Positions 4,507 to 35,708 of a DNA stretch of 40,311 nucleotides are shown here, piece after piece. Under the pieces are notes generated by a model, which was not told the DNA's origin, did not search any database, and was given only the letters and a program-made list of their open reading frames with translations. Source of the DNA: a virus. The stretch is from positions 1 through 40,311 of the IMG/VR virus record IMGVR_UViG_3300019487_000054; one strand, given 5' to 3'. The position numbers and the translations under genes are program-made. The stretch's first letter is position 1. The number at the start of each line of letters is the position of its first letter.

Positions 4507-4516
4507 GATATTTATA
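4507..4516 (+). promoter_or_regulatory. Late-type box (TATTTATA core)
   Basis: The box reads GATATTTATA, with its core starting 21 bases before the ATG at 4530. A Shine-Dalgarno (AAAGGAA, 4519-4525) sits between box and start. This is the leadered form of the motif that recurs upstream of many genes here. A promoter role is inferred. Confidence 0.5.
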
Positions 4517-4529
4517 ACAAAGGAAACAT

Positions 4530-4826
4530 ATGCCAACGCCAAACGAAAGACCATCCCTAACGACTGACCTTCAGACTCGCTACACCAAGCAACGTGCCGG
4601 TGGAGCATTTGATGTCAAGGCAACCCTCGGCGGACCCGGCACACAACCTGCCGCTGGAACGACCATTGATGCTACCAGCATGAACGGTAATGAATTTCAG
4701 AACCCAAACGGATTTGAGGTTAAAGTCAAGCAAGGCGTCACTGCCTTCAAGGATGCTCAAGGTGTGCAATCCAAACAATTGTCACGCTACATCCGTGGCT
4801 TTTCTGCCCGTAAGTACAAGCCATAA
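4530..4826 (+). CDS. Small putative virion protein
   Basis: This 98-residue basic protein is rich in Thr, Gln, Gly and Lys and has no membrane segment. Its N-terminal third is polar and probably disordered. The C-terminus (residues about 80-98) is Arg/Lys-rich with SRYIRGFSARKYKP, suggesting nucleic acid or acidic-surface binding. It has a good Shine-Dalgarno (AAAGGAA) and its own upstream A/T box, so it is likely expressed as a late gene. A rho-independent terminator directly follows, making it the last gene of the first structural block. The family is not recognised. Confidence 0.55.
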   Translation: MPTPNERPSLTTDLQTRYTKQRAGGAFDVKATLGGPGTQPAAGTTIDATSMNGNEFQNPNGFEVKVKQGVTAFKDAQGVQSKQLSRYIRGFSARKYKP

Positions 4827-4849
4827 ACGACTCAAATATAAAAACTCTT

Positions 4850-4875
4850 ACCCCGCTTCGGCGGGGTTCTTTTTT
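4850..4875 (+). terminator. Rho-independent terminator
   Basis: A perfect 6-bp GC stem (CCCCGC/GCGGGG) with a stable TTCG tetraloop is flanked by an extra A-T pair and followed by TTCTTTTTT. It separates the structural block from the resolvase gene, whose ATG lies only 12 bases beyond the T tract. Confidence 0.92.
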
Positions 4876-4887
4876 GTACTTATCCCT

Positions 4888-5388
4888 ATGATACTAGGTT
4901 TTGACGCATCAACCTCAACATGTGGGTGGGCTTTTTATAATGGCTCGTCTATTGCAGATGCGGGGTTCATTGACCTCACCAAGAAGGAAACCAACAAAGA
5001 AAAGGCATTTCATGTCATTTCTGTCCTAGCTTCTAATCCAAACCTCCCAAACACCACTCAAATCAATCTCGAAGCCGCTCTATCGGGGTTTATGAGGGGC
5101 AGGACGAGTCAACAGGTGGTAATCAAGCTCGCACGCTTTAATGCGGTCTTCGAGTATATCATCGCCGAACAGATGAAACTGCCCGTAAAGCTCGTTTCGG
5201 TCACGACTGCCAGAAAGACGGTGTTTGGCAAATGCCGGGTAAAAGGGCTGACAGGTAAAGAATATGTTTATCAAGAACTTCCAAAAATTCATCCAGAAGT
5301 ATTAAACTTTGAAAAAATGAACAGAAAAAACGAATGGGATGTTCGGAATGCTGATATGTATGATGCAGTAGTTACCAGTATTGCATAA
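4888..5388 (+). CDS. RuvC-like Holliday junction resolvase
   Basis: The 166-residue protein has the RNase H-fold signature of RuvC-type resolvases. It opens with a beta strand ending in the catalytic Asp (ILGFDAS, D6), has a second acid in INLEAA (E62), and ends with a C-terminal helix carrying D156 and D159 (NADMYDAV). Family members cut four-way junctions. Here that would clear branched replicative DNA before packaging, the job done by endonuclease VII in T4. ATG 4888 is chosen because it begins just before the first strand and after the terminator; an upstream in-frame extension would run through the preceding gene and the terminator. The stop overlaps the next start (TAATG). Confidence 0.82.
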   Translation: MILGFDASTSTCGWAFYNGSSIADAGFIDLTKKETNKEKAFHVISVLASNPNLPNTTQINLEAALSGFMRGRTSQQVVIKLARFNAVFEYIIAEQMKLPVKLVSVTTARKTVFGKCRVKGLTGKEYVYQELPKIHPEVLNFEKMNRKNEWDVRNADMYDAVVTSIA

Positions 5389-6104
5389 TGAAAGACAAAT
5401 TTTACGTTTACCATTTGATTGATCCAAGAACGGGAACCCCGTTTTATGTTGGTAAAGGACAAGGAAACCGACTTTTTCAACACATTCATGATGTAATCAA
5501 TGGAAGAATTCCAAACGGTAACAATTACCTTTTCAACAAAATCCGAAAAATCTTATCTCTTGGATTAAAAATCGAATGTAAAAAGATTATCGAACACATT
5601 TCTGAGCAGCAGTCGTTCTTGATTGAAAAGGCTGAAATTCAAAAACATGGAATGCGTGGTAAAGGTATTCTATGTAATTTATCGTTGGGTGGGGAGGGAA
5701 ATGGTGGATATAAACATACATTGGAACAAATCGAAAAACATAGACAATCATTAAAGAAAAGATTTTCCGATCCTGTGTTTTTAGCCGAGCATCGGAAACG
5801 AATGAAACAAATCCATTCCACTCCCGAAGCCAAAAAGAAAAATTCGCAAAGAATTAAACAATTTTATCAAAACAACCCATTACAAATAAAAAAACTATCT
5901 ACTATACAAAAAAAGTTATGGAGAGATGGAAAGTATAATAATTCTAAATCATGGGTGTTTATGTCTCCTGATGGAGAAAAAACCGAGTTTGAAAATTTGC
6001 AACAATTTTGCAAAGAAAATCATTTGTGCCAATCTAATATGATTGCTGTATTTAGAGGAAGACGCAATCAACATAAAGGATGGAGACAATGTATTATATC
6101 TTAA
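5388..6104 (+). CDS. GIY-YIG homing endonuclease
   Basis: The 238-residue protein begins with a GIY-YIG-type nuclease domain (YVYHLIDPRTGTPFYVGKG, residues about 4-22), with the following Arg and His of the active site (R28, H32). A Lys/Arg-rich linker follows. The C-terminal region (about 190-236; WVFMSPDGEK then a helix and GRRNQHKGW) resembles the DNA-binding modules of intron- and phage-encoded homing enzymes. Its A of ATG is the last base of the resolvase stop codon, so it is translationally coupled. Its base use is more AT-rich than its neighbours, consistent with recent acquisition as a free-standing mobile endonuclease. No intron is evident. Confidence 0.85.
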   Translation: MKDKFYVYHLIDPRTGTPFYVGKGQGNRLFQHIHDVINGRIPNGNNYLFNKIRKILSLGLKIECKKIIEHISEQQSFLIEKAEIQKHGMRGKGILCNLSLGGEGNGGYKHTLEQIEKHRQSLKKRFSDPVFLAEHRKRMKQIHSTPEAKKKNSQRIKQFYQNNPLQIKKLSTIQKKLWRDGKYNNSKSWVFMSPDGEKTEFENLQQFCKENHLCQSNMIAVFRGRRNQHKGWRQCIIS

Positions 6105-6195
6105 ATTTAAGACATCCGTCAGAATTTACGGTTGATTTATTTATGAAATTCTATAATAAAATCAAAAGTATAATGATCAATGGAATGTATAACTT

Positions 6196-6408
6196 ATGAA
6201 AGACATCCGAATTACTTGTGATCGCTGTGGAAAAGTTGTCCACGGACTTATTGACGAAGGAAATCCCAAAATGACAGGCGGGTTCTATGACGTGACCGAA
6301 GGAACATGGTCTCAATTTGCCCGATGGGAAGAAGAAAAAGTGTGTGATGACTGTATGCACAGTTGCCCAAAATACAAAAAGATTCACCACACGCCCGCAC
6401 CAGAATAA
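6196..6408 (+). CDS. Small zinc-binding protein
   Basis: This 70-residue protein has a treble-clef/zinc-ribbon-like pattern: CDRCGK near the N-terminus (C9, C12) paired with CDDCMHSC near residues 52-58. It is soluble. It lies between two GIY-YIG genes and ends 3 bases before the next start. The upstream gap (6105-6195) is AT-rich and contains a TATTTATG box at 6138-6145 plus two TATAAT-like hexamers without a convincing -35 partner. Function is unknown; single small zinc-ribbon proteins in phages often bind nucleic acid or protein partners. Confidence 0.6.
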   Translation: MKDIRITCDRCGKVVHGLIDEGNPKMTGGFYDVTEGTWSQFARWEEEKVCDDCMHSCPKYKKIHHTPAPE

Positions 6409-6411
6409 GTT

Positions 6412-6720
6412 TTGAAAATTGGTTACTTATACATAATCGTGAACGATGCCTATCCCGGTTGGGTTAAGGTTGGAACCACGACAAATTTGACGGAACGCCT
6501 TCACGTCTATCAGACCGGCGACCCATTTCGCAGTTATAAAATTGTTTACTCCCTCCATCATCCTGAGTTTCGAGATGCAGAAAAACGCATTAAAGAAACC
6601 ATGAAACACTTCGCATTGGAAATCAAGGGCGAGTGGTATCGAATTGATCTGAACATGGCAAAAAGCCGCTTGGAAGAACAATTGGACGAATACCACGAAA
6701 CCCTCAGCCAGTTAAAATAA
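6412..6720 (+). CDS. GIY-YIG nuclease-fold protein (T5orf172/MUG113-like)
   Basis: The 102-residue product consists of a single GIY-YIG-like domain: GYLYIIVND as the first strand, WVKVGTTTNLTERL as the second strand and helix carrying the Arg, and E52/E57-type acidic helix positions followed by EWYRI. This arrangement matches the T5orf172 group rather than the long homing enzymes. A TTG start is required because there is no ATG before the first strand, and the TTG lies 3 bases after the previous stop. It could be a small DNA nuclease, but no DNA-binding module is attached. The fold call is good; the substrate is unknown. Confidence 0.72.
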   Translation: MKIGYLYIIVNDAYPGWVKVGTTTNLTERLHVYQTGDPFRSYKIVYSLHHPEFRDAEKRIKETMKHFALEIKGEWYRIDLNMAKSRLEEQLDEYHETLSQLK

Positions 6721-6721
6721 G

Positions 6722-7696
6722 TTGAGTTTTGCCTTTTTGTCGAGTAGTATTGGGCAAATGCTCGTACAGTCCCAAATTGTAGCTCTTCTCAACGAGTTGC
6801 TCGGTCAGACAGCACGGCTTCGTAAAGGAGGCAATCAGGCTGTTTATTTCTGCCCCTGTTGCCATCACTACAAGCGAAAATTGGAAATCAATTTGGAGAC
6901 GGGTCAGTGGCATTGTTGGACGTGTAACATCAAGGGTTCGTTCTTAGGTTCTTTCCTCAAAAAAGTCAAAGCCTCAAGTTCTTACAGAGAAAGAATGGCA
7001 GAACTGACGGGCGATTTGCGAATTGCTATTCGCAAAAAAGGAAAGGAAGACGAACAGGCGTTAATGCTGCCGGACGAGTTTCATCCGTTGGCGAAACCCG
7101 TTGCCTCAATTGAATACCGAAATGCATTGAGCTACTTGAAACGTCGTGGGGTTCTTCGTGAAGACATCATCCGATACAACATTGGATATGCAGAAAGTGG
7201 AGACTATGCATTTTATGTCATCATTCCATCCTACGATGCCGAGGGAAATCTGAATTTTTTCATGGGTAGGCGTTATTATGAAAGCGAGGGAACAATCCCA
7301 CACAAGAAGCCGCAAGTGCCCATGAATCTGGTTGGCTTTGAAAGCTTTGTCAATTACAGCGAACCACTGAATTTCTGTGAAGGAGCATTTGATGCGATGG
7401 CAATCAGAACCAATGCCATTCCGCTCTTTGGAAAATATCCTTCCAAGAAGCTTCGTGAGCGAATGGTAATACACGATGTCAAACGTGTCAACATGGTGTT
7501 GGACGATGATGCACTTAATGATGCAGTAAAAAATTACGAACTGCTAGTTAAAGATGTGCCCGGAATTTCGGTCTTCATTGTTAAGCTCAATGGCAAAGAC
7601 CCTTCCAAACTTGGATTTTTGAAGACGCACAAATTGATTCGGGAAGCAGAAGAATTCACAGAGTCCGATTTGTTAGCGTACAAACTGAACATATGA
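6722..7696 (+). CDS. DNA primase (gp61/DnaG-type)
   Basis: The 324-residue protein has an N-terminal zinc finger (C44, C47, C65, C68; CPCC and CWTC) of the CHC2 primase type. A Toprim-like core follows with FCEGAFDAMAI (glutamate plus DA) and an acidic VLDDDA cluster. These motifs synthesise RNA primers for lagging-strand replication. The length is close to T4 gp61. The first start is TTG 6722; an in-frame ATG at 6758 (residue 13) is a credible alternative and still precedes the zinc finger. The stop overlaps the following nuclease gene by ATGA, so primase and recombination nuclease are coupled. No helicase gene lies in the window. Confidence 0.88.
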   Translation: MSFAFLSSSIGQMLVQSQIVALLNELLGQTARLRKGGNQAVYFCPCCHHYKRKLEINLETGQWHCWTCNIKGSFLGSFLKKVKASSSYRERMAELTGDLRIAIRKKGKEDEQALMLPDEFHPLAKPVASIEYRNALSYLKRRGVLREDIIRYNIGYAESGDYAFYVIIPSYDAEGNLNFFMGRRYYESEGTIPHKKPQVPMNLVGFESFVNYSEPLNFCEGAFDAMAIRTNAIPLFGKYPSKKLRERMVIHDVKRVNMVLDDDALNDAVKNYELLVKDVPGISVFIVKLNGKDPSKLGFLKTHKLIREAEEFTESDLLAYKLNI

Positions 7697-10600
7697 TAAC
7701 TATCCTAAAGACGGAAAACAAGAAGTTCACCCATATTCTGCACGTTGCAGACATCCACATCAGGTTGAACAAGCGACACGACGAATATCGCAACGTCTTC
7801 AAAACTCTCTACGAAGAAGTCAGAAACAGTCCACCAGATACAGTTGTTGCTTTGCTGGGCGACGTTTTTCATAGCAAGTCCGACCTTAGCCCCGAATGCG
7901 TTCAAATGGCAACCGATTTGTTCAAGAATCTTGCCGACATTCGTCCTGTCATTTTGATTGCGGGAAATCACGACGCCACACTTTCCAACAAGAGTCGCTT
8001 GGACAGTTTGACTCCAATCGTAGATGCATTAAGTCATCCCAACTTACACTATTTGAAGAACACGGGGTTGTATGGATATGGAAACATTTTGTGGAACAAC
8101 ATGGGTGTGTTTGATCAGCCAGAAAACTATATCCGTGGTCAAGACATTCCAGATTTGTATCGCAATCAGTACGACCACATAATCGCACTATTCCACGGGG
8201 CAGTTGATAAAGCTGCTTTGGAGAGCGGTTATGCCATCAGCAATCCCGCCATCATGGTTCCAATGTTTGATTGGCACGATATTGCCTTGCTTGGAGACAT
8301 TCACAAAAAGCAAGACATGCAAGACTATGATCCCGAAAATCATAAGCCATGTGTGCATTATGTGGGAAGTATGGTTCAACAAAACCACGGCGAAGACCTT
8401 CATGGACATGGTTATTCAATGTGGGATTTGCCGACTCGTTCCTACGAATTCCACGAACTCAAAAATGAAGTTGGGTACTTCACAGTTGATATTCATAAGG
8501 GGCAGGTCACTACAGATTTGACTGAGCTTCCCGCTCAAGTTCATCTTCGTCTCCGATGCTATGATACAATTGCTTCGGAAGTCAAGGCGGTTGTAGCCAA
8601 GCTCAAAGAACGCTGTCAGATTGTTGAAACGGCGTATGTCCGCATGGACCAAGAAGCCGACAAAAAGGATGTTATTCCACTTTGTACCGACGTTGTATTG
8701 ACCGATTTGACCAATGTTGAATATCAAAACGAACTGATCAAAGAGTTCTTGGAGAAAAAGCTTCAAATCACAAATCCACAAAAAGCGGATGATATTCTTA
8801 ACATCAATCGTGCAACAAATCTCCTTATCAAACGAGACGAGTTTGCTCGCAATTTGAAGTGGAAGCCCATCAAATTTGAATGGGATAATATGTTCACTTA
8901 TGGGGAAGGAAACTCAATTGACTTCACCCAAATGGATGGCGTCTATGGAATCTTTGGTCCAAACTGTGCTGGAAAATCAAGCATTCTTTCATCTCTGATT
9001 TTCTGCTTGTATGACAAGTTTGACCGTGGGTTTAAGGGTCTTCATGTACTCAACGTTCAAAAGTCTTCCTTCCGCTGCAAACTGGAATTTGAGATTTCTG
9101 GTGTCCGATATTTCATTGAGAGAAAAGGCTCAACTACTCGTTCTGGAAACGTCAAGGTTGACGTGAAGTTCTGGAAAGTAGTGAATGGTGTGGAAGAAGA
9201 ATTACACGGCACGGCTCGGCGTGATACCAACGAAGTCATTCGTGATTATATTGGAACATACGAAGATTTCGTACTCACCGCTGCCTCTTTCCAGACCGCA
9301 AAGAACAACACGTCGTTCATTGACATGGGCAATAGCGAACGGAAAGACTTGCTTGTTCAATTCATTGGATTGAATGTGTTTGACCGTCTTGCCGAATCGG
9401 GCAGTGAACGCAACAAAGAACTCAATACGTTGCTAAAGGTTCATAAGGATAAGAACTATCCATTTGAAAAGCAACAGAATGAGAATGCGTTGGCACACGC
9501 CGACACACTTCTCAATCAAGCCAACAAAGACTTGGATTCGTTGAAGAAACAAATCTCCGATGTCAATGAACAAATTGTTATTGAGACAGGAAACTTGATT
9601 AAGCTGGACGATGAAGTTCCAACCAACATTCCCCAACTTAACGACCGAAAAATTGCAGCGGAGACTTCCGTTCGACAAAAACGTGCTGCTTTGGAAGGAT
9701 TTCGCACGGCGGTTGCTGAGAAAGAAGGCTCCATCACAGACATCAATCAGAAGATTCAAGACATTGAATCGTCCAATCTTGTTGAGAGTCACAAGACCTA
9801 CAAGACTTTATCAGACAAAATCAATGAAGTGAAGCAACGGGTCGATCTCAAGAAGGTGGAGATCAAGGGTAAGTTGGAAAAAGCCGACCGTTTGAGTGTC
9901 CACGAGTACGACCCCAATTGCCGCTACTGCACGAACAATTCCTTTGTGAAGGATGCAACTCGTGCAAAACAAGAATTGATTCAAGACAAAAAAGATACGG
10001 ACCACATGGTCTCTGCGTTGGAAAATCTTCGCACTGAGTTTGCCAAGTATGAGTGGGTCGAAAAGGCATATGAAACCTACACCAAGCTTTTGAATGAGAG
10101 AAGTAAGGTGAAGGATGAATATGGAACCCTGTCCCGAAACATCATTGTTGGAACCAATGAGCTTGAAAAATTGGAAGTGGCACTGAAGACTGTTACGGGT
10201 CAGATTGAACTTTACCATCGCAACGAAGTCGCCGTGGAAAGTAACTCAAAGGTTCATGCCAAGATTTCTTCTTACAAGACGACCATTACTCGGTTGGATT
10301 TGGACTTACAAAAACAGAACCGATTGATGATGGACATTTCCGGCAAGCGTGAAATCTTCCGCAACAACATTGAGAAGCTGTGCAAGACTATGGAAGAGCT
10401 TAAAGCTTTGGAATATGAAGCTGATTCGTATCAGTTGTACCTTGCCTCGGTAGGACGTGATGGCATCCCGTACCAAGTCATCTGCAATACCGTTCCGGCA
10501 ATTGAAAAGGAAGTGAATTCTATTCTCTGCCAAGTGGTTGACTACACAATCCAGCTTGAGACGGATGGGAAGAACGTAGTTCCGTACGTTGTCTATGACC

Positions 10601-10899
10601 ACGGACGCTGGCCAATTGAGCTTACGTCTGGATTTGAGAGATTTGTTGCCTCGGTTGCAATCCGTGTAGCCCTGACAAACATATCAAATCTCCCCAAAAC
10701 CACATTCTTGGCGATTGATGAAGGCTTTGGAACATTGGATGCCGATAACATGGCTGCGATGTACACTTTGTTCTCATTCCTGAAGAGCAATTTTGACTTT
10801 ATCCTTGTCGTGAGTCATTTGGACGCCCTGAAAGACGCCGTTGACAAGCAGATTGAGTTAAAGAAAGAGGGCAGCTTCTCCAAAGTAACATTTGAATGA
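7693..10899 (+). CDS. Fused SbcD/SbcC-type recombination nuclease-ATPase (gp47-gp46 fusion)
   Basis: The 1068-residue chain joins both halves of the Mre11/Rad50 system. The N-terminal calcineurin-like phosphoesterase shows D20-x-H22, D57 (LLGDVFH) and N92-H93-D94. From about residue 405 an ABC ATPase half begins with Walker A (GPNCAGKSS, 422-430). A long coiled coil carries a zinc hook (CRYC, 743-746). The C-terminal ATPase half has a signature near 978 (LTSGFERF) and Walker B D1009/E1010 (AIDEGFGTLD). In T4 these are separate genes 47 and 46, needed for end resection and recombination-dependent replication. Reading is continuous with no internal stop. It overlaps primase upstream and an HNH gene downstream, each by ATGA. 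Confidence 0.9.
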   Translation: MITILKTENKKFTHILHVADIHIRLNKRHDEYRNVFKTLYEEVRNSPPDTVVALLGDVFHSKSDLSPECVQMATDLFKNLADIRPVILIAGNHDATLSNKSRLDSLTPIVDALSHPNLHYLKNTGLYGYGNILWNNMGVFDQPENYIRGQDIPDLYRNQYDHIIALFHGAVDKAALESGYAISNPAIMVPMFDWHDIALLGDIHKKQDMQDYDPENHKPCVHYVGSMVQQNHGEDLHGHGYSMWDLPTRSYEFHELKNEVGYFTVDIHKGQVTTDLTELPAQVHLRLRCYDTIASEVKAVVAKLKERCQIVETAYVRMDQEADKKDVIPLCTDVVLTDLTNVEYQNELIKEFLEKKLQITNPQKADDILNINRATNLLIKRDEFARNLKWKPIKFEWDNMFTYGEGNSIDFTQMDGVYGIFGPNCAGKSSILSSLIFCLYDKFDRGFKGLHVLNVQKSSFRCKLEFEISGVRYFIERKGSTTRSGNVKVDVKFWKVVNGVEEELHGTARRDTNEVIRDYIGTYEDFVLTAASFQTAKNNTSFIDMGNSERKDLLVQFIGLNVFDRLAESGSERNKELNTLLKVHKDKNYPFEKQQNENALAHADTLLNQANKDLDSLKKQISDVNEQIVIETGNLIKLDDEVPTNIPQLNDRKIAAETSVRQKRAALEGFRTAVAEKEGSITDINQKIQDIESSNLVESHKTYKTLSDKINEVKQRVDLKKVEIKGKLEKADRLSVHEYDPNCRYCTNNSFVKDATRAKQELIQDKKDTDHMVSALENLRTEFAKYEWVEKAYETYTKLLNERSKVKDEYGTLSRNIIVGTNELEKLEVALKTVTGQIELYHRNEVAVESNSKVHAKISSYKTTITRLDLDLQKQNRLMMDISGKREIFRNNIEKLCKTMEELKALEYEADSYQLYLASVGRDGIPYQVICNTVPAIEKEVNSILCQVVDYTIQLETDGKNVVPYVVYDHGRWPIELTSGFERFVASVAIRVALTNISNLPKTTFLAIDEGFGTLDADNMAAMYTLFSFLKSNFDFILVVSHLDALKDAVDKQIELKKEGSFSKVTFE

Positions 10900-11357
10900 A
10901 AATATGTTCCTCATGTCGTAAGACTAAGCCGTTAAATGAATTTGGAAGGCAAAAAGATCGTCAAGATGGACGGCGAAGTCATTGTAAATTATGCATCCGA
11001 GATTATAATAAAACCAAGGCTAAGTCCAGAGGCAACTGGTGGAAAAAATCAAATGAAACACTTTTAGGAAAATTTCAGTATTTTAGACAATCAAGTCGTA
11101 GAAGAAAATTGAAATGGAATCTTTCCTTTGAAGATTTTTCTAAAATTCCACAGGTATGTTACTATACCGGACTTCCTCTTACTCTCAAACGAAATAACGA
11201 CCATACGCTATCATTAGACCGGATAAATAGCCGGGTTGGATACACAAAAAATAACGTGGTATTTTGTTGTAGTGCGGTAAACTACATGAAATCCGACCTT
11301 ACACTGAAAGATTTTATATCTTTTTGTCGCAAAGTATCCAAGAAGTTCCCGCTCTAA
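10896..11357 (+). CDS. HNH endonuclease
   Basis: The 153-residue protein starts with two CxxC pairs (CSSCRK, CKLC) forming an N-terminal zinc module. It then has an HNH-like core with CYYTGLPL, SLDRINSRVGYTKNN and a C-terminal Cys pair region (FCCS). The central D-R-x-N-x-x-x-G-Y-x-x-x-N pattern is typical of phage HNH homing nucleases. It begins inside the stop codon of the recombination nuclease gene (ATGA) and is more AT-rich than that gene, so it looks like a mobile endonuclease that has inserted to be translated by coupling. It ends well before the next gene and may use readthrough transcription only. Confidence 0.85.
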   Translation: MKICSSCRKTKPLNEFGRQKDRQDGRRSHCKLCIRDYNKTKAKSRGNWWKKSNETLLGKFQYFRQSSRRRKLKWNLSFEDFSKIPQVCYYTGLPLTLKRNNDHTLSLDRINSRVGYTKNNVVFCCSAVNYMKSDLTLKDFISFCRKVSKKFPL

Positions 11358-11375
11358 TTAAGACAAAGTTACATG

Positions 11376-11395
11376 CGTTCTATATTTATAGAACG
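11376..11395. repeat. 20-bp perfect palindrome around a late-type box
   Basis: Nine-base arms (CGTTCTATA/TATAGAACG) flank a central TT. It contains the TATTTATA core and ends one base before ATG 11397. It could act as an operator or as a hairpin at the transcript start. Confidence 0.6.
11382..11390 (+). promoter_or_regulatory. Late-type box (TATTTATA core)
   Basis: The box reads ATATTTATA, with its core starting 14 bases before ATG 11397. If it acts as a -10 element, transcription would begin at or next to the start codon, giving a leaderless mRNA. Promoter role inferred from recurrence. Confidence 0.5.
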
Positions 11396-11396
11396 T

Positions 11397-13673: not shown

Positions 13674-13694
13674 GCATTTTTCATCCTTTTGGAC

Positions 13695-13704
13695 GATATT
13701 TACA
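13695..13704 (+). promoter_or_regulatory. Late-type box (variant)
   Basis: The box reads GATATTTACA, with its core starting 36 bases before ATG 13733. It lies in the 59-base gap that separates the large structural gene from the terminase block. Confidence 0.4.
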
Positions 13705-16060: not shown

Positions 16061-16078
16061 AGAAACACATTTATACAC

Positions 16079-16092
16079 GGGCATTTATGCCC
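16079..16092. repeat. 14-bp perfect palindrome upstream of portal gene
   Basis: GGGCAT/ATGCCC arms around a central TT lie 33 bases before the portal ATG, just after a CATTTATA sequence at 16069-16076. It may be a regulatory hairpin or operator. Confidence 0.5.
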
Positions 16093-18255: not shown

Positions 18256-18264
18256 ATATTTATA
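18256..18264 (+). promoter_or_regulatory. Late-type box (TATTTATA core)
   Basis: The box reads ATATTTATA, with its core starting 33 bases before ATG 18290; a GAAGAGAG purine stretch precedes the start. A second, weaker copy (GAATATTTACAT) lies about 30 bases upstream in the same gap. Confidence 0.5.
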
Positions 18265-26497: not shown

Positions 26498-26499
26498 TC

Positions 26500-28063: not shown

Positions 28064-28068
28064 ACGCT

Positions 28069-28077
28069 TATAAATAT
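28069..28077 (-). promoter_or_regulatory. Late-type box (TATTTATA core, minus strand)
   Basis: Read on the minus strand the box is ATATTTATA, with its core starting 13 bases before the ATG at 28063. The distance predicts transcription starting at or next to the start codon. Confidence 0.55.
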
Positions 28078-28091
28078 GTGTCTGAAGGACG

Positions 28092-28412
28092 TTATTTCAA
28101 CTTTTTGTCTATTTCCGGCTGAGAGTAATGATCAAAGTAATCAATGACATCATTGAAGTTATGGAATCTCTTATTTTCTCGTTCCGGCTCTTCTATAAAA
28201 AAGAACTCATGTTCCTTCTTTGCTTCGTCAACATCCTTCTTTTTATAGATGGTAATTTTGGGGTCTTTTGAAGTGACCATGTGATGATCGTCTGCAAATT
28301 CAAATCCCATTGCTACAAGGTGGTCAACATCCGGCCAACGCCAGTCATCAATGCTGATTAGACCATCCTTCTTTTCGTGGGACATTGTGTGAATGATTTC
28401 ACTGAGCTTCAT
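28092..28412 (-). CDS. Small acidic protein of unknown function
   Basis: The 106-residue protein begins MKLSEIIHTMSHE, an amphipathic start similar to several head-block proteins. It is rich in Asp, Glu, His and Lys, with an aromatic centre (IDDWRWPDVDHL) and a C-terminal helix. It starts in the ATGA overlap with the upstream minus-strand gene, so both form one transcript. It has no membrane segment and no motif that I recognise. A virion-internal role is a guess from its genomic position and N-terminus. Confidence 0.45.
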   Translation of the reverse strand: MKLSEIIHTMSHEKKDGLISIDDWRWPDVDHLVAMGFEFADDHHMVTSKDPKITIYKKKDVDEAKKEHEFFFIEEPERENKRFHNFNDVIDYFDHYSQPEIDKKLK

Positions 28413-29224: not shown

Positions 29225-29228
29225 ATTC

Positions 29229-29238
29229 AATAAATATC
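29229..29238 (-). promoter_or_regulatory. Late-type box (variant, minus strand)
   Basis: Read on the minus strand the box is GATATTTATT, with its core starting 12 bases before the proposed GTG start at 29224. It helps to choose that start over longer ones. Confidence 0.45.
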
Positions 29239-29267
29239 TACAAATTTTTTTGTTTTTCAGAATTTTG

Positions 29268-29281
29268 ATAATAGTTATTAT
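29268..29281. repeat. 14-bp perfect palindrome in the divergent intergenic region
   Basis: ATAATA/TATTAT arms around GT lie between the minus-strand zinc gene and the scaffold gene. The 163-base gap (29225-29387) also holds a smaller inverted repeat (GAAGTT/AACTTC, 29347-29363) and no gene. Confidence 0.45.
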
Positions 29282-29387
29282 ACAGAAATGCCGCATTCCT
29301 ATGCCGCCAACCGACTCACTAGAGTCACGTTTTAATAACCTTCATTGAAGTTTGAATAACTTCAGAACCCTAATAAGGAAAATCCAT

Positions 29388-30725
29388 ATGGATAGCAACC
29401 TGTTGAAAGAGGCTATCGCAGATGCAAAGGCAGTTCGTCAAACCGCACTCGCCAATGCCAAAGTCGCTCTGGAAGAAGCATTCTCCGAGCGTTATCATGC
29501 GATGTTTGCCGAGAAGTTGAAAGAAGATGCCGCTATGGGAGATGCTCCCGCAGCCGCACCAGCAATGAAAACTGACGTAACTGTATCTGAGCAAGAAATC
29601 GACGAGCTTATCAAAGAACTTGAGGCTGAAGTCGGTGGCGAAGCTCCCGTAGCACCCGAAGGCGAAATGCCTCCAATGGATGCTGCACCAGTTGCACCAG
29701 CACCAATGGCTCCTCCCGTTCCGGGAGCAGTGCCTCCGGGTTGCCCACCTGTTGCTCCTGTAGCACCAGTACCAGCAGTCGGAGCACCAGTACCTCCAAT
29801 GGGAGCACCAATGGATATTGCACCAGCAGCACCCGCTGCACCAGTACCAACGGCACCACCATCTGATGTCCCACCAGTCTCTGGCGAGGAAGCAGACGAG
29901 GATGTCAATTTGGATGAACTTTTGCAGAGTTTGAAAGAAGAGATCGAAGGCGACGAAGACAAGCACGAAGAGAAAGACAAGATGGATGAGCAAACCAAGC
30001 TCGCATCTTCGGCTATCGCTCCCGGCGGCAACAAGAAGCCTTCCGCATCAGCTAACGCAAGCTCTCACATTGAAACGGGTGGAATGAAGGACGAAGGTCT
30101 GCCAATGAGCACGACCAAAGCCTCTGACCCGACCGAAGCATCTCGCCCAAACAGCGATGGTGACTTTGAAAATACGCCTAAGCTCGCTAAGGAGAGCATT
30201 GCACTGAAGGACAAGGGTGTTCCCGGTGGCAAGGTTGGTCCAGAAGACGCAACCAAAGCTGCTCGTCCTAACAGCGACGGCGACATCGAAGATACGGCAA
30301 AACTGACGAAGGAAAACGTATCTCTCAAGAAACAACTTAATGAAGCCGAAGAGGTCATTAAGTATGTGAAAGTACAACTTAATGAGGTTAACTTGCTGAA
30401 TGCCAAACTGCTTTACACGAACAAGCTGTTTAAGGAATACGCAATGAACAACGAGCAAAAGATGCGTGTTGTTGAAATGTTTGACCTCGCCAAAAACGTT
30501 CGTGAAGTTAAACTGACTTACGCTAACATTGCAGAGTCGTTGAATTTCAGTGGATCGGACAAGAAGAAGGCTAAAGAAGCCCCAGCTTCCGTCCAAAGCA
30601 TCACTGAAGGTCTCGCATCCAAGCCAGTCGGAAGCACGAAGCCAAGCACTCAGATCATTTCTGAAAGCAAGGCAACGGGCATGGTATCTAAATTCCAAAA
30701 ACTCGCAGGAATTAAGAAAGCCTAA
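29388..30725 (+). CDS. Prohead core scaffold protein (gp22-like)
   Basis: The 445-residue acidic protein lies just upstream of the capsid gene, the gp22 position. It has a helical N-terminus (LLKEAIADAKAVRQTALANA), a long Pro/Ala/Val-rich low-complexity region (about 70-165), an acidic helix (LLQSLKEEIEGDEDK), and a conserved scaffold-type coiled region (about 305-390; LLNAKLLYTNKLFKEY). Scaffold proteins form the prohead core and are degraded by the prohead protease. A 40-residue unit is repeated twice (residues about 246 and 286). ATG 29388 follows a purine-rich Shine-Dalgarno (AATAAGGAAAA) and is preferred over an in-frame TTG at 29352. Confidence 0.82.
   Translation: MDSNLLKEAIADAKAVRQTALANAKVALEEAFSERYHAMFAEKLKEDAAMGDAPAAAPAMKTDVTVSEQEIDELIKELEAEVGGEAPVAPEGEMPPMDAAPVAPAPMAPPVPGAVPPGCPPVAPVAPVPAVGAPVPPMGAPMDIAPAAPAAPVPTAPPSDVPPVSGEEADEDVNLDELLQSLKEEIEGDEDKHEEKDKMDEQTKLASSAIAPGGNKKPSASANASSHIETGGMKDEGLPMSTTKASDPTEASRPNSDGDFENTPKLAKESIALKDKGVPGGKVGPEDATKAARPNSDGDIEDTAKLTKENVSLKKQLNEAEEVIKYVKVQLNEVNLLNAKLLYTNKLFKEYAMNNEQKMRVVEMFDLAKNVREVKLTYANIAESLNFSGSDKKKAKEAPASVQSITEGLASKPVGSTKPSTQIISESKATGMVSKFQKLAGIKKA
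30123..30332 (+). repeat. 120-bp direct repeat inside scaffold gene
   Basis: Two copies in the same frame, 120 bases apart, encode related segments sharing RPNSDGD followed by a (D/E)(D/N)T-x-KL-(A/T)KE pattern. The first copy starts at 30123 and the second at 30243. Codons differ between copies, so the duplication is not recent. Confidence 0.8.
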
Positions 30726-30770
30726 ACATCAACCGCAAAGTTAGCGAGTAAAAAACAAACAACCAATCAT

Positions 30771-32465
30771 ATGGAAAACGTAAAAGAACTGTTGACCAAT
30801 GCATTGAATCCTCAAGCACGCTTGATGTCTGAGACCCGTGGACTCGTGTCCAAGTGGGAAAAGACTGGCTTGCTCGAAGGACTCAAGAATGACATTGAGA
30901 AATCCAACATGTCTGTTTTGCTGGAAAACCAAGCAAAGCAGCTTATTGAAGAATCGTCTGTAACCGGCACTCAGAGCAACTCTGAGCAATGGGCAGGCGT
31001 CGCACTCCCACTCGTTCGTCGTGTATTCGCCGAAATCGCAGCTAAGGAGTTCGTCTCCGTCCAACCAATGAACCTGCCTTCAGGTCTGGTGTTCTACTTG
31101 GACTTCAAGTATGGAATCAACTCTGGCGTGTTCACTCAAGACTCCAGCACCAACTATTCATCGCTCTTCGGTGGAACGGGTGCAAAGTCTGGTTCGACTG
31201 ACCAACCAACGGGTGGTCTCTACGGTCCCGGTCGCTATGCCTACACGGTTAACGATCAGATCGCTTGGAACCAATCCACTGGTTCTGTTGCTACTGTCGC
31301 TGACATCAACTTCGACACTGGTAACTCCAACGACCCTGTTAACCAAGCTCTCTCGGCTTCGTTGGCAGCAGGACAACTCTACACCCTTACAACCAACGGT
31401 TTGACCGCCGCAGTTCTCGCTGCTTCGTCTTCTTACCCTGACTTGAACGCAGTTCGCTCGTTCACCGTCTCTGGTTCTGGCGTGTTGACCTACTTCCCCG
31501 GCTTCACCCGCTTTAGCGGCTCTGAAGTTGTGTTCGTAGTCTCTGGTTCTACTCCGTTGACTGGCTCCGGTGCTCCCGCAGTCAAGATCAACTTGAGCCT
31601 GCAACCTCGTGATACTTCCCGTGGTGATTTTGAAGACCGTCTTGGTGCTTCTACTACGGCAACGGATACTGGTCTTAACAAAGACATTGGTATTCCTGAA
31701 GTTAACCTTGAGCTTCGCTCTGAGCCTATCGTGGCTAAGACCCGCAAGTTGAAAGCAGTTTGGACTCCCGAACTCGCCCAAGACTTGAACGCCTACCACT
31801 CGGTAGATGCTGAAGCCGAATTGACCGCTCTGTTGTCTGAGTATGTCTCTATGGAAATCGACCTCGAAATCCTTGACATGCTGATCAACAACGCTCCAGC
31901 AGTCAACAAGGAACGTTGGAGTGCAAAACTCAATCGTGAAATCATCAAGACTGGTGCTAACAGCTATCAGATTGTTGATCAAACCACGGCTGGTTCGGGT
32001 GGATACTACACCAAGGCAACTTGGTATCAGACCCTCGGAAACAAGATTCAAAAGGTATCTAACAAGATTCACCAATTGACTCTGCGTGGTGGTGCAAACT
32101 TCATGGTCGTGGGACCAGATGTTGCAACGATCCTCGAATCCATCCCCGGATTTGTCGTGAACACCGATGGTGATTCCGCCAAGTTCGCAATGGGTGTGAG
32201 CCGTGTTGGTAGCTTCGCAAGTCGCTTCCAAGTGTACAAGAACCCATACATGCAAGAGAATTTGATTCTCTTGGGCTTCCGTGGAAATAACTTCCTCGAA
32301 ACCGGAGCAGTGTATTCCCCATACATTCCTCTCATTCAGACTCCACTGGTCTATGATCCAGTGAACTTCACGCCTCGCCGTGGAGTTATGACTCGGTATG
32401 CTAAGAAAATAGTCCGGCCAGAGTTTTACGGGTTAATCTACGTAGCAGATACGAACCAAGTCTAA
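30771..32465 (+). CDS. Major capsid protein precursor (gp23-like)
   Basis: The 564-residue protein has T4-like capsid landmarks: a charged N-terminal propeptide, ALPLVRRVFAEIAAKEFVSV (about 79-98), QPMNLPSG, a long variable Ser/Thr/Gly-rich insertion (about 120-270), and the conserved C-terminal P-domain with TRKLKAVWTPELAQDLNAYH, TGAVYSPYIPLIQT and RYAKKIVRPEFYGLI. The propeptide probably ends after L-I-E (E60) or I-E-E (E61), matching the gp21 I/L-x-E rule; gp23 of T4 is cut at a similar position. It follows the scaffold gene by 45 bases and is closed by a strong terminator. Confidence 0.94.
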   Translation: MENVKELLTNALNPQARLMSETRGLVSKWEKTGLLEGLKNDIEKSNMSVLLENQAKQLIEESSVTGTQSNSEQWAGVALPLVRRVFAEIAAKEFVSVQPMNLPSGLVFYLDFKYGINSGVFTQDSSTNYSSLFGGTGAKSGSTDQPTGGLYGPGRYAYTVNDQIAWNQSTGSVATVADINFDTGNSNDPVNQALSASLAAGQLYTLTTNGLTAAVLAASSSYPDLNAVRSFTVSGSGVLTYFPGFTRFSGSEVVFVVSGSTPLTGSGAPAVKINLSLQPRDTSRGDFEDRLGASTTATDTGLNKDIGIPEVNLELRSEPIVAKTRKLKAVWTPELAQDLNAYHSVDAEAELTALLSEYVSMEIDLEILDMLINNAPAVNKERWSAKLNREIIKTGANSYQIVDQTTAGSGGYYTKATWYQTLGNKIQKVSNKIHQLTLRGGANFMVVGPDVATILESIPGFVVNTDGDSAKFAMGVSRVGSFASRFQVYKNPYMQENLILLGFRGNNFLETGAVYSPYIPLIQTPLVYDPVNFTPRRGVMTRYAKKIVRPEFYGLIYVADTNQV

Positions 32466-32484
32466 ACGATTTGGTAAACCAATC

Positions 32485-32513
32485 AAAGAGCCGCCTTTGG
32501 GCGGCTCTTTTTT
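32485..32513 (+). terminator. Rho-independent terminator after capsid gene
   Basis: An 8-bp GC stem (GAGCCGCC/GGCGGCTC), extendable by three A-T pairs, has a TTTG loop and is followed by six T residues. Confidence 0.93.
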
Positions 32514-32546
32514 ATCTAAAATAACTTGATATTCCCACCAATATCT

Positions 32547-32556
32547 GATATTTATG
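32547..32556 (+). promoter_or_regulatory. Late-type box (variant)
   Basis: The box reads GATATTTATG, with its core starting 13 bases before ATG 32562 and 10 before ATG 32559. It would give the mobile endonuclease its own, nearly leaderless transcript beyond the capsid terminator. Confidence 0.45.
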
Positions 32557-32561
32557 GTATG

Positions 32562-33320
32562 ATGAAAAGTGGAATATACAAGATAACAAATAATGTGACT
32601 GGTAAGTTTTACATTGGTAGTGCCAAGGATATTGATTGGCGTTGGATTATCCATCGGCGGGATTTGAGAGCCAATAGACATTGTAACCCAAAACTACAGC
32701 ACTCTTGGAACTTCTATGGAGAAGACAAGTTTTCCTTCATTATTCTTGAAGAAGTCGAACCAATCCAAGAGAAGTTATTTGAACGTGAGCAGTATTATTT
32801 GGATACCTTCAAACCGTATATTCGTGGGTTAGGATACAACATTAGCCCAAAAGCAGATGGTGGTGATAACATAACATATCATCCTGATAGAGATGCATTC
32901 ATTGAAAAAATGAGTGCGATTTGTTCCGGTGAGAATAATCCTATGTTCGGAAGAACCCATAGTGATGATACGATTAAAAAACAAAAAGAAAAAGCAAACG
33001 GCAGATTTACGCTTGAGTGGTTTATTGAGAAGTATGGATTAGAACAAGGTCAACAAAAATATGATGCTCGCAGATTGATGTTGGCTAATAGGAAAATGAA
33101 ACAGAACAATGAACCGTGGAATAAAGGAAAAGACACCGGCATTAGATGGAAACATAAAGATGGCTGGTTAGAAAAAAGAAAACAAACTGCCGAGTATTTT
33201 ATCAATCATTTTAATGAATTCAGAGCATTGGTTCTTTCAGGAAATCATAGTCAACGAGAACTATGTAAAATTTTGGGTGTAGGAAGGGAATGTTTAAGAA
33301 AAAATATAAAAAGAATTTGA
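32562..33320 (+). CDS. GIY-YIG homing endonuclease with NUMOD-type DNA-binding modules
   Basis: The 252-residue protein starts with the GIY-YIG domain (SGIYKITNNVTGKFYIGSA, residues 3-21), with active-site candidates in the following WRWIIHRRDL helix. NUMOD3-type motifs follow (GENNPMFGRTHSDD near residue 126, and EPWNKGKDTG), and a C-terminal helix-turn-helix (HSQRELCKILGVGRECLRKN). These modules bind DNA in phage and intron homing enzymes. The next-base alternative start ATG 32559 would add one Met. The gene is AT-rich compared with the capsid gene, sits immediately after its terminator, and is a typical free-standing mobile endonuclease beside a conserved structural gene. Confidence 0.88.
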   Translation: MKSGIYKITNNVTGKFYIGSAKDIDWRWIIHRRDLRANRHCNPKLQHSWNFYGEDKFSFIILEEVEPIQEKLFEREQYYLDTFKPYIRGLGYNISPKADGGDNITYHPDRDAFIEKMSAICSGENNPMFGRTHSDDTIKKQKEKANGRFTLEWFIEKYGLEQGQQKYDARRLMLANRKMKQNNEPWNKGKDTGIRWKHKDGWLEKRKQTAEYFINHFNEFRALVLSGNHSQRELCKILGVGRECLRKNIKRI

Positions 33321-33331
33321 TATTTTTGTTT

Positions 33332-33341
33332 GATATTTATA
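33332..33341 (+). promoter_or_regulatory. Late-type box (TATTTATA core)
   Basis: The box reads GATATTTATA, with its core starting 42 bases before ATG 33376. It is the only promoter-like signal between the endonuclease and the glycine-rich gene. Confidence 0.45.
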
Positions 33342-33375
33342 AAAACTCGGATATGGTGTCCGAAATTTGAAACCT

Positions 33376-33942
33376 ATGACAACATTAAACATAACAACTG
33401 GTTCTATAACTATAGCCAACACAATTGGTGGAGGAATAAATGGAATAGCATATTTCACTGCCTCTGCGACTTGGACAATTCCTAATGGAATTACAAAAGT
33501 TCGTGTAATCGCCATTGGTGGAGGAGGCGGTGGAGCCACTGGTGCGGCTGGTGGAGGAGGAGGCGGATATGCAGAAGATGTAGTAGATGTAAGTTCTTAT
33601 TCAACTTTACCAGTAACCGTGGGGAGTGCCGGGGCACAATATGTTGGTGGAAGTAATGGTGGAGATGGAGGAGATAGTGGATTTCTCAATGTTACCGCAA
33701 GCGGAGGTAAAGGTGCTATTGCTGGTGGTGCAACTACAAACGGAGGCATCGGCGTTTCTGCGACGCTTGTTGGGCGAGGAGGATATGGAGATAATTTAGG
33801 AGGAGGAGTTGCAGGAAATCTTCCGTGGGTATTTCCATTACCTACATCTGTATTGAACACATCAATAAACCTTAATACGATTGGATGTGGTGGATATGGA
33901 AATGCTACTGCAAGTTATGGAGCAGTAGTCATTTATTACTAA
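33376..33942 (+). CDS. Glycine-rich adhesin-like tail protein
   Basis: The 188-residue protein has a beta-rich N-terminus with ATWTIPNGITKVRVIAIG, the standard entry strand of glycine-rich receptor-binding domains. Polyglycine runs follow, interleaved with Ala/Ser/Asn (GGGGGG, GGSNGGDGGDSG, GRGGYGDNLGGG), and the protein ends in the strand YGAVVIYY. Proteins of this type act as fibre-tip adhesins (T4-like gp38 family and related) or tail collar proteins. ATG 33376 is chosen over an in-frame TTG at 33367. The stop is followed by a terminator hairpin. Host receptor specificity is not visible from the sequence. Confidence 0.7.
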   Translation: MTTLNITTGSITIANTIGGGINGIAYFTASATWTIPNGITKVRVIAIGGGGGGATGAAGGGGGGYAEDVVDVSSYSTLPVTVGSAGAQYVGGSNGGDGGDSGFLNVTASGGKGAIAGGATTNGGIGVSATLVGRGGYGDNLGGGVAGNLPWVFPLPTSVLNTSINLNTIGCGGYGNATASYGAVVIYY

Positions 33943-33954
33943 AAATCAACACAA

Positions 33955-33980
33955 CAACCCTCCATTAGTGGAGGGTTGTT
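33955..33980 (+). terminator. Terminator hairpin between convergent genes
   Basis: A perfect 10-bp stem (CAACCCTCCA/TGGAGGGTTG) with a TTAG loop lies between two convergent genes. On the plus strand it is followed by only a short TTTA, so termination may be moderate. Confidence 0.75.
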
Positions 33981-33988
33981 TATGTACA

Positions 33989-34645
33989 TTATTCACGTAG
34001 TCTATAAACTAACAAATCATCGGTCTTTCTTTCTTTGCAAAACCACTCGTGCTTCAAATCATAATTGAGATCATTAAAGAATTGTTTGCATTCATCATGA
34101 TGTCCTTTTTTAACAAGACTTTCATGAGTATAAATAAATGCCCATCTAATTTTTCCTTCCTCAAATGTTTTTCGGTTGTCTTGTAACATTTGAAGCTCAC
34201 TTCCATCAATGTCACAATGCAGAAAATCGATCTCGGACAGGTGTGCATTTAACATAATAAGTTTTAATGTGACGGTCGGAACTTTAGAAGTTTTATTATC
34301 CCATTTCCATGCTTTTCCCACTCCTGCATTGTAAAATATCCCTTTACAATTGTTCAATGCAAACTCCTTTTCTCCCATTTCCAATCTCCATCTAAATGGT
34401 TCAACCATAATGTTGAGTGTCCTGTCTTTTCCAATAATGTGCTTGAACAACAGTGAGTAGTAAGCATTTGCTGCTCCTAGTTCAACCATTGAAGATATTG
34501 GTTTGTTTTGTATTTTCAATTCTAGGGCTTCCTGTTCAAACAGTTCTATCGGAACAGTTTCCCATCGTTCAAAAAAGGTAGGATGGACTGATTTTCCAAA
34601 TTGATCTACAGAGACCCTAAACCCATATTTTTCAGTAATTGTCAT
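33989..34645 (-). CDS. FkbM-type methyltransferase
   Basis: The 218-residue protein has the Rossmann AdoMet-binding loop MVELGAANAYYSLLF (near residues 53-67), an acidic strand end (IMVEPFRW) and the family hallmark FLHCDIDGSELQML (near 140-153), followed by WAFIYTHES. These are features of FkbM-type O-methyltransferases, often found in glycan or lipid modification clusters. A Shine-Dalgarno (AAAGGAAG) lies just before the ATG. It is divergent from the release-factor gene and convergent with the glycine-rich adhesin gene. It may modify a fibre-linked or host surface glycan. The target is unknown. Confidence 0.72.
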   Translation of the reverse strand: MTITEKYGFRVSVDQFGKSVHPTFFERWETVPIELFEQEALELKIQNKPISSMVELGAANAYYSLLFKHIIGKDRTLNIMVEPFRWRLEMGEKEFALNNCKGIFYNAGVGKAWKWDNKTSKVPTVTLKLIMLNAHLSEIDFLHCDIDGSELQMLQDNRKTFEEGKIRWAFIYTHESLVKKGHHDECKQFFNDLNYDLKHEWFCKERKTDDLLVYRLRE

Positions 34646-34667
34646 AACTTCCTTTGATTGGCTTGAC

Positions 34668-34676
34668 TATAAATAG
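34668..34676 (-). promoter_or_regulatory. Late-type box (TATTTATA core, minus strand)
   Basis: Read on the minus strand the box is CTATTTATA, with its core starting 30 bases before ATG 34645. A Shine-Dalgarno lies between box and start, so this is the leadered form. Confidence 0.5.
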
Positions 34677-34689
34677 TGTGTTTTTACTC

Positions 34690-34718
34690 TTGACAAATAC
34701 TTATTCTTGTCATACATT
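34690..34718 (+). promoter_or_regulatory. Sigma70-like promoter for release-factor gene
   Basis: A perfect TTGACA -35 and a TACATT -10 are separated by 17 bases. The -10 ends 9 bases before ATG 34728, giving a leader of about 3 bases, the same geometry as the promoter at 24981. Confidence 0.75.
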
Positions 34719-34727
34719 TGACGACTT

Positions 34728-35379
34728 ATGATCGTAGAAATCAGAGCAGCAGAAGGTGGGGCCGACGCCAAAGACTTGGTGTTGGTTCAAGTAGATATTT
34801 ACACTCGCTTGGCAAAGCGGGGGTTGCTTTGACCTCGAAATTGTTGACCTAAGACCGGGGTTGGCAGTTCTTCAAGTAGGCGGTCATAAAGCTTCCGAAA
34901 TCTTCCAACACGAATCCGGCGGACACCGATGGCAGCACGCTCCTACAGGCAAAGTCCATACTAGCACCATTACGGTCGCTGTATTGGAAGAGCCTACTCA
35001 ACAGGAGCTTGTTATTCATCAAAAAGACCTCCATATAGCCACATGTCGGGGTGCGGGCAACGGTGGACAACACCGCAACAAAACCGATTCCGCTGTGATT
35101 GTTACGCATATACCTACCAAAACGGTAGTTAGGTGTGAAAACGAGCGTTCTCAGCATCAAAACAAGGAATTGGCTATAAAAACCCTCCGAGCACGCCTTT
35201 GGCAATCCATTCAAGAAAAGACTGCCTTGGCAGTATCACAGATTAGAAACAATCAAATAGGGTCAGGACAACGGGGAGACAAGCGGAGGACAATTCAGGC
35301 TCAGAATAATGTCGTAAAAGACCATCTGACGGGTCGGAAGTGGAGATATGAGGATTACATCAAAGGTAGATGGGATTAA
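34728..35379 (+). CDS. Domain-1-less class I release factor expressed by predicted +1 frameshift
   Basis: Two reading frames form one release factor: 34728-34829 (34 codons, ending in an in-frame TGA) and 34831-35379 (+1 frame). Skipping T34830 yields 216 residues. The first part, VEIRAAEGGADAKDL, corresponds to the start of RF domain 2 and the +1 part continues it without a gap (HESGGHRWQ, HTSTITVAV). Then come the GGQ loop (GAGNGGQHRNKTDSAV, Q114), ERSQHQNKELA and GSGQRGDKRRT, signatures of peptidyl-tRNA-hydrolysing release factors. Domain 1 (about 100 residues) is absent: an in-frame TGA lies 9 bases upstream of the ATG. The stop-codon recognition segment is short (APTGKVHTS). It has its own sigma70-like promoter, so it may be an early gene. 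Confidence 0.85.
34819..34833 (+). other. Predicted programmed +1 frameshift site (prfB-like)
   Basis: GGGGG (34819-34823), a three-base spacer TTG, then slip codon CTT and TGA C. This has the same slip codon, stop and following base, and the same spacing from the G run, as the Escherichia coli prfB site (AGGGGG TAT CTT TGA C). In prfB, slow UGA termination lets peptidyl-tRNA slip +1 with help from the Shine-Dalgarno-like pairing. Frameshifting here is inferred. Confidence 0.88.
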
Positions 35380-35666
35380 GAAAAGCCAAGGGCAGTTCTT
35401 TCTTCAACTGTCAACTTAGCAAGTGCTTGAATCTTTGTCTGTTCTTTGAGTTCGGCTGCGGCTGCTTCGGCATCTTCCACACCTTTTTTTATAACGTAGG
35501 CTTCGTACCAACTTCGGAATTCTGGATATTGTTCCAGAAGTTTGGGTTCGTTTGCTGCCACAGTCGCCGCAATTGGTTCCAAAATATCAAAGGACTCTTT
35601 TATGATTCGTGGGTCGTATGCCACCGGAAGTGACACTCCATCGGGCGTTATTATTCTAAAAGGCAT
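35376..35666 (-). CDS. Small helical protein of unknown function
   Basis: The 96-residue protein starts MPFRIITPDGVSLPVAYD. It then becomes helical and acidic with a coiled-coil-prone segment (VEDAEAAAAELKEQTKIQAL) and the ending EERTALGFS. ATG 35666 is chosen because a minus-strand A/T box ends just 3 bases upstream; a longer in-frame start at 35684 would overlap that box. Its 3' end overlaps the release-factor stop by 4 bases. No motif or homolog is recognised. The box suggests it is expressed late, unlike the neighbouring release factor. Confidence 0.5.
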   Translation of the reverse strand: MPFRIITPDGVSLPVAYDPRIIKESFDILEPIAATVAANEPKLLEQYPEFRSWYEAYVIKKGVEDAEAAAAELKEQTKIQALAKLTVEERTALGFS

Positions 35667-35669
35667 GGT

Positions 35670-35679
35670 AATAAATATC
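35670..35679 (-). promoter_or_regulatory. Late-type box (variant, minus strand)
   Basis: Read on the minus strand the box is GATATTTATT, with its core starting 11 bases before ATG 35666. It is paired with an opposing box at 35700-35708, making a compact divergent promoter region of about 50 bases. Confidence 0.5.
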
Positions 35680-35699
35680 GCCAAAGGAGTATCCGTTCC

Positions 35700-35708
35700 A
35701 TATTTATA
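35700..35708 (+). promoter_or_regulatory. Late-type box (TATTTATA core)
   Basis: The box reads ATATTTATA, with its core starting 19 bases before ATG 35720. The leader would be only a few bases long and shows no clear Shine-Dalgarno. Confidence 0.5.

Follow-up and report, generated by a model that had tools for sequence, protein, structure and literature searches.

A recurrent TATTTATA box upstream of genes in a T4-like phage fragment is a candidate late promoter element with a gp118-family sigma-like protein as its likely reader

Results

A recurrent box on both strands of the window

The stretch of DNA analysed here (the window, G000) is a virus record of 40,311 bases in which an eight-base box, TATTTATA in its exact form, recurs upstream of genes on both strands and probably serves as the -10-like element of late promoters. 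Matches to PHROGs families were obtained for a terminase large subunit (14408), a portal protein (16125), a head maturation protease (21527) and a major head protein (30771), as well as for an SbcC/SbcD-like fusion (7693) and a primase (6722), and by these gene names the window is assigned to a T4-like phage. By terminase identity, Flavobacterium phage immuto was the nearest isolate at 49.5%, closely followed by Microcystis phage Mel-JY01 at 49.3%, and the relatives found in IMG/VR by terminase were 70-79% identical.

The first-pass annotation had reported the recurrent box, and we found all 11 of its cores at most 2 bases from where it had placed them. Seven are exact TATTTATA and the others are TATTTACA, TATTTATT (twice) and TATTTATG. 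All 11 sit before a same-strand start opening at least 60 codons, with gaps of 2-28 nt. The boxes of the window, including two that were absent from that annotation (16068 and 34129), are:

4509..4516, + strand: TATTTATA box, 13 nt from ATG 4530
11383..11390, + strand: TATTTATA box, 6 nt from ATG 11397 (MPQQLLS...)
13697..13704, + strand: box variant TATTTACA, 28 nt from ATG 13733
16068..16075, + strand: box variant CATTTATA upstream of the portal gene (ATG 16125), with a short hairpin next (16068-16090)
18257..18264, + strand: TATTTATA box, 25 nt from ATG 18290 of the gene after the portal gene
28069..28076, - strand: TATTTATA box, 5 nt from ATG 28063, a leaderless geometry
29229..29236, - strand: TATTTATT box, 4 nt from GTG 29224
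32549..32556, + strand: TATTTATG box, 2 and 5 nt from two consecutive ATGs of a gene that we take to be GIY-YIG-like, a name given only from reading the protein by eye
33334..33341, + strand: TATTTATA box, 25 nt from TTG 33367 or 34 nt from ATG 33376
34129, - strand: exact TATTTATA inside a gene
34668..34675, - strand: TATTTATA box, 22 nt from ATG 34645
35670..35677, - strand: TATTTATT box, 3 nt from ATG 35666
35701..35708, + strand: TATTTATA box, 11 nt from ATG 35720

The window contains 8 copies of exact TATTTATA for 0.79 expected, and none of 100 shuffles reached that number. Five of these 8 copies have a called start 2-40 nt downstream, a zone that covers 2.4% of positions (p 4e-7), compared with one for TATAAATA, the T4 late promoter box. 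Several sites could be followed in relatives. The box ahead of the 4530 gene recurs at its orthologs in 6 relatives (the ortholog alignment misplaced the G018 copy), orthologs of the 11397 gene carry it with a gap of 6 nt in G041 and 3 nt in G022, and TATATTTATAA upstream of 18290 is unchanged in all 4 orthologs that were aligned. At 13697, the motif model described below scored an overlapping TACGTATA as the box. A spacer of 23 bp separates the box at 35670 (-) from that at 35701 (+), and the two point away from each other. The 11383 box lies within a palindrome, GTTCTATA-TT-TATAGAAC (11377-11394).

Direction, motif and spread of the box among phages

Eighty terminase relatives were collected; the bare-pattern scan covered the contigs of 35 and the motif work 11, which G028 joined later. 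G017 (90% identical to G002) was taken out of the motif model and of the open-ATG counts, and is still inside the called-start 8-mer counts, the bare-pattern scan and the first gp55, gp45 and gp118 searches. Partial sequences were used for G036 (160,000 of 161,982 bases), G028 (180,000 of 184,824), G041 (120,000 of 120,796) and LR756508 (120,000 of 484,177). Gene starts came from a simple custom caller and some of them are wrong (11373 instead of 11397, 35765 instead of 35720). The open-ATG test, for which called starts were not the sole reference, counted sites outside gene bodies and at most 40 nt from an open ATG, in the window and ten contigs. L233, which has a stop codon, was excluded from alignment A1 together with L255 and L261, these two as a precaution, and L215 was excluded from alignment A2.

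The box, its direction, its spacing and its spread were read from the sequences themselves. Within 60 nt upstream of a called start, TATTTATA was counted 5 times in the window (0.22 expected), 35 times in nine relatives including both G002 and its near-copy (2.7 expected) and 21 times in the farther relatives G018 and G022 (1.7 expected), with 1, 2 and 6 copies of TATAAATA, respectively. T4's sense TATAAATA is thus not the word found at the -10 position in the window. Among upstream 8-mers counted at least 4 times, TATTTATA was the leading word in the nine relatives and came fourth in the window, where overlapping words preceded it. The open-ATG test gave 121 boxes versus 42 reverse complements, so that the two orientations are unequal, which was the check named with the original claim, and 51 versus 6 when only gaps of 3-5 nt were counted.

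An EM motif model built on 371 upstream regions gave (G/T)A-TAT(T/G)TAT(A/t), with about 20% of genes carrying the box. Position 4 of the core is T in 68% and G in 30%, the relatives thus also having TATGTATA. Upstream of the boxes, the information content was at most 0.27 bits per position (94 sites), with a weak A 16-17 nt upstream, and a search of this region for a -35 element found none, TTTG counts being scattered.

The same word was found in more distant phages. Upstream regions of the whole immuto genome contain 17 TATTTATA and 4 reverse complements. In its late part (78-160 kb) TATTTATA is the top upstream 8-mer (13 versus 0.73 expected, reverse complement 2), and between 0 and 65 kb it is weak (3 versus 0.5 expected). 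In the same upstream test, the counts of TATTTATA and its reverse complement were 10 and 1 in Mel-JY01, 14 and 2 in G036, 21 and 3 in G043, and 14 and 1 in G028. G041 was weak by called starts (4 versus 0.7 expected) and clear by open ATGs (24 boxes, 9 of them at 3-5 nt). The controls gave the opposite preference, with 11 TATAAATA and 2 TATTTATA in T4 (45-165 kb), and 9 and 0 in cyanophage ACG-2014f; BUCT-ZZ01 (2 and 0) and Moby (0 and 0), which both have gp55, showed scant or no signal for either word. We found no description of TATTTATA as a phage late promoter in the open-access literature, subscription papers being mostly outside that search, and nothing on T4-like late promoters in Bacteroidetes phages in the accessible parts of the same literature.

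Two other words, ATATTTAG and ATTTAGGT, were enriched upstream of genes genome-wide in immuto without being top words in its early or late part. Their enrichment points to the small-gene region at about 65-78 kb, where they are possibly an early promoter.

Distance between the box and the start codon

Among the 121 boxes of the open-ATG test, 51 have the ATG exactly 3, 4 or 5 nt past the box (22, 15 and 14, respectively), compared with 6 of the 42 reverse complements. Among 8-mers counted at least 5 times whose end is 3-5 nt from a downstream open ATG, TATTTATA again comes first (34 versus 2.85 expected). Such gaps were seen in 24 of 74 boxes in G043 and G028, in 7 of 71 in immuto and G036, and in 1 of 27 in Mel-JY01, and none of 20 T4 TATAAATA boxes lies less than 12 nt from its start. 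The 5-nt gap at the 28063 gene is kept in all five phages compared (the window, G004, G009, G012 and G041). A Shine-Dalgarno-like word was present at 2 of 37 genes with a box at 0-8 nt, at 15 of 43 with a box at 15-60 nt and at 84 of 409 without a box.

According to the accessible part of one report, the flavobacterial sigma-A box spans -12 to -5 (PMC9723704). From this position, a gap of 4 nt between box and +1 would be expected, which is the middle of the 3-5 nt range. Since 51 of the 121 boxes are this close to the ATG, compared with none of the T4 boxes below 12 nt, many late mRNAs of the window's clade are probably leaderless.

The clade also has 45 leadered boxes, several with a hairpin beginning 0-5 nt past the box. 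In six phages (L105:13089-13126, L100:15009-15049, L112:10651-10688, L108:18233-18273, L089:7965-8006 and L110:7019-7063) a TATGTATA or TATGTATT box, mostly TATGTATA, is followed by a hairpin that persists although its letters vary, with two-sided changes in 6 of 7 pairs. Support for the hairpin of the portal gene is weaker (two-sided changes in 1 of 6 pairs).

Relation to the T4 box

The box had been interpreted as the T4 motif flipped and read by a diverged late sigma/coactivator pair, or else as a novel promoter class. The flipped reading does not hold, since TATTTATA and TATAAATA have positions 1-3 and 6-8 in common and differ only at positions 4-5, where AA is replaced by TT, and it does not predict the TATGTATA of the relatives. 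That TATAAATA is the reverse complement of TATTTATA is, on this comparison, the coincidence of a near-palindrome. In the T4 gp55 open complex, as described in the accessible text, protein pockets hold A-12, A-9 and A-8, with A-12 and A-8 deep (PMC7892883). In our alignment these bases correspond to positions 2, 5 and 6 of the box, so that TATTTATA retains -12 and -8 and alters -10 and -9. A novel class is too strong a term for one -10-like box with no clear -35; judged by its sequence, the box appears to be a variant of the T4-type late promoter accompanied by a diverged phage sigma-like protein. The directional use of the box, its place ahead of late genes on both strands and the sigma half of the proposed pair were retained, and a separate coactivator was not identified, gp33 not having been searched for.

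A sigma-like protein family in the relatives

In a search of 23 non-T4 records with the gp55 PHROG (phrog_234), immuto gp118 was the sole match and a weak one (E 0.008); immuto and Mel-JY01 yielded nothing further with this family. Homologs of gp118 number at least 600 in IMG/VR and are also present in Mel-JY01 and LR756508. Among the window's relatives they were found in G002, G011, G012, G017 and G022; none was found in the 40,311-base window or in the other relative fragments searched alongside, and we infer that the gp118 gene of the window's phage would lie beyond the fragment. The family profile matched exactly one copy in each of 10 lineage records and none in T4.

The Pfam family Sigma70_r2 was matched by 11 of 53 gp118 homologs (best 2.6e-4) and the gp55 PHROG by 6 of 53 (best 9.9e-4), each being the most-matched family of its library; T4 gp55 itself is equally weak against Sigma70_r2 (E 0.0045). 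Comparison of the gp118 family with nine gp55 proteins by hhalign gave a colinear alignment (P 3.6e-4), and the gp118 profile had no match among the sequences of solved structures. An AlphaFold2 model of the family member L227 (pLDDT 73.8) had as its best match 7d7c_F, the gp55 of an RNA polymerase (RNAP) open complex (Z 10.4, rmsd 3.9 A, 111 residues), and the structure matches listed were mostly sigma factors. With residues paired by eye, the equivalent of Y97 is Y in 86 of 86 homologs. The C-terminal part of about 100 residues is modelled fairly confidently (pLDDT 82.6) as a helical domain with no clear match, its best being an SRP protein (Z 5.6), followed by SigA region 4 (Z 5.1). The gp45 clamp family phrog_223 was matched by T4 alone among 24 records, a result that a diverged clamp would also give. 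The RNAP beta family PF00562 had no match in 10 lineage records, which for IMG/VR may be incomplete, compared with 14 of 14 controls. Taken with the model, these comparisons make gp118 the likely reader of the box.

The gene order around gp118 recurs in the seven loci compared. The upstream neighbour is a small protein whose N-terminus is hydrophobic and in which an F-x-x-D-D-x-V-G stretch is conserved (L227:5714-6001, L232:5696-5986, L241:5700-5996 and L138:2517-2810, among others); this protein could be a membrane-bound regulator or an anti-sigma. The downstream neighbour is a protein of 116-143 aa with a common N-terminal pattern (L227:6977-7360 and orthologs), whose gene has its own box 4-6 nt ahead of the ATG in G022, G028 and G043.

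A tRNA-Phe called by ARAGORN in the window (35910-35987) lies within the gene 35720-36460 and is probably a chance match.

Discussion

Proposed mechanism and alternatives

We consider it probable that the box acts as a -10-like late promoter element at which a gp118-family sigma opens the DNA, with transcription starting about 4 nt downstream and often giving leaderless mRNAs. The gp118-family sigma, a region-2 protein that is distantly gp55-like and carries an additional C-terminal domain, would join the host RNA polymerase, and the polymerase carrying it would open the DNA at the box and begin transcription about 4 nt further on; that gp118 reads this box, and that transcription starts at this position, is what we infer from the box and the protein together. 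In the window's clade the start codon would often be at that point, and many late mRNAs would be leaderless, the remaining ones having leaders, some with a hairpin directly past the box.

An AU-rich translation-initiation element near start codons, in hosts with little Shine-Dalgarno use, would account for the 51 boxes at 3-5 nt from the ATG and for the rarity of the Shine-Dalgarno-like word where the box is closest. It would not account for boxes up to 40-60 nt upstream, where that word is present in 15 of 43, for the same box in Mel-JY01 with almost no gap of 3-5 nt, or for its presence at only about 20% of genes, and T4 has a known promoter box of like shape; we regard this explanation as improbable. 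The AT-rich box begins with TA, as does TATAAT. It shares this beginning with the Bacteroidetes TAnnTTTG given in the accessible text of two reports (PMC9723704, PMC7366714), and it could be a host -10 (or -7) element read by the host's own sigma. This seems slightly less probable still, as the consensus matches neither, with TATA in place of TTTG, as the box is common to Flavobacterium and cyanobacterium phages and so tracks the phage lineage rather than the host, and as its immuto copies are found mainly at late genes.

The late-promoter reading with gp118 as reader itself meets several difficulties. No gp118 match passes a curated cut-off, the hhalign probability for gp118 against gp55 is only 15.8%, and a Foldseek search by itself ranked sigma structures first without significance, no match reaching E<=0.001; good scores can arise by chance for helical folds. 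The equivalent of T99, which reads A-8 in T4 gp55, varies (G 63, Q 18 and S 5 of 86, in the same by-eye pairing). The 484-kb LR756508.1 (L306) has a gp118 homolog, yet the 120 kb analysed shows enrichment of neither word, the signal there being weak at best. Under T4 geometry a gap of 3 nt would put +1 within the ATG, part of the TATGTATA sites fall within longer inverted repeats, and the hairpins starting directly at the box are not easily reconciled with a start 4 nt downstream. The weak similarity to sigma factors and the case of LR756508 would both suit a late promoter read by another phage factor, gp118 having a different role. We judge this unlikely, although less so than the two preceding explanations, because the top fold match of the gp118 model is gp55 and most of the listed matches are sigma factors, and because neither a second gp55 match in immuto or Mel-JY01 nor an RNAP beta match in the 10 lineage records was found.

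More tentatively, and with somewhat less than even confidence, this large and mostly uncultured T4-like branch may have its own late system, in which the C-terminal domain of gp118 replaces gp33 or the clamp, the -10 code is shifted (TATTTATA/TATGTATA) and a much higher share of late mRNAs is leaderless than among host mRNAs. The box and the gp118 family form a candidate sigma-box pair for a group of phages often met in metagenomes. If correct, this pair would show how a region-2 sigma alters two bases of its box, would make the late genes of such phages predictable and would raise the question of how the ribosomes of these hosts cope with many mRNAs that lack a leader.

Comparison with known systems

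The late promoters of T4, which depend on gp55, gp33 and gp45 (PMC7892883, accessible part), are alike in having a single 8-base -10-like box without a conserved -35, in the presence of late genes on either strand and of T4-type head genes, and in a region-2 sigma-like protein, which here is a candidate. They differ in the box itself (TATAAATA instead of TATTTATA), in the gp45 family, for which no match was found here, in the sigma-like family, which is here below database cut-offs and has an extra C-terminal domain of about 100 aa, and in spacing, since many boxes here are 3-5 nt from the ATG and none below 12 nt in the T4 sample. The late promoters of phiKZ, in the portion of the report accessible to us, consist of TATG with +1 at the G (PMC5312081) and resemble the present box as a very short AT-rich element near the transcription start; unlike what was found in the lineage records, where RNAP beta was not matched, phiKZ requires a phage multisubunit RNAP. 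Bacteroidetes sigma-A promoters share the predicted distance between box and +1 and differ in sequence, the motif model giving TAT(T/G)TATA and not TAnnTTTG. The accessible text on these bacteria gives 5.5% of host mRNAs as leaderless (PMC9723704), compared with the 51 of 121 boxes that are here in leaderless geometry.

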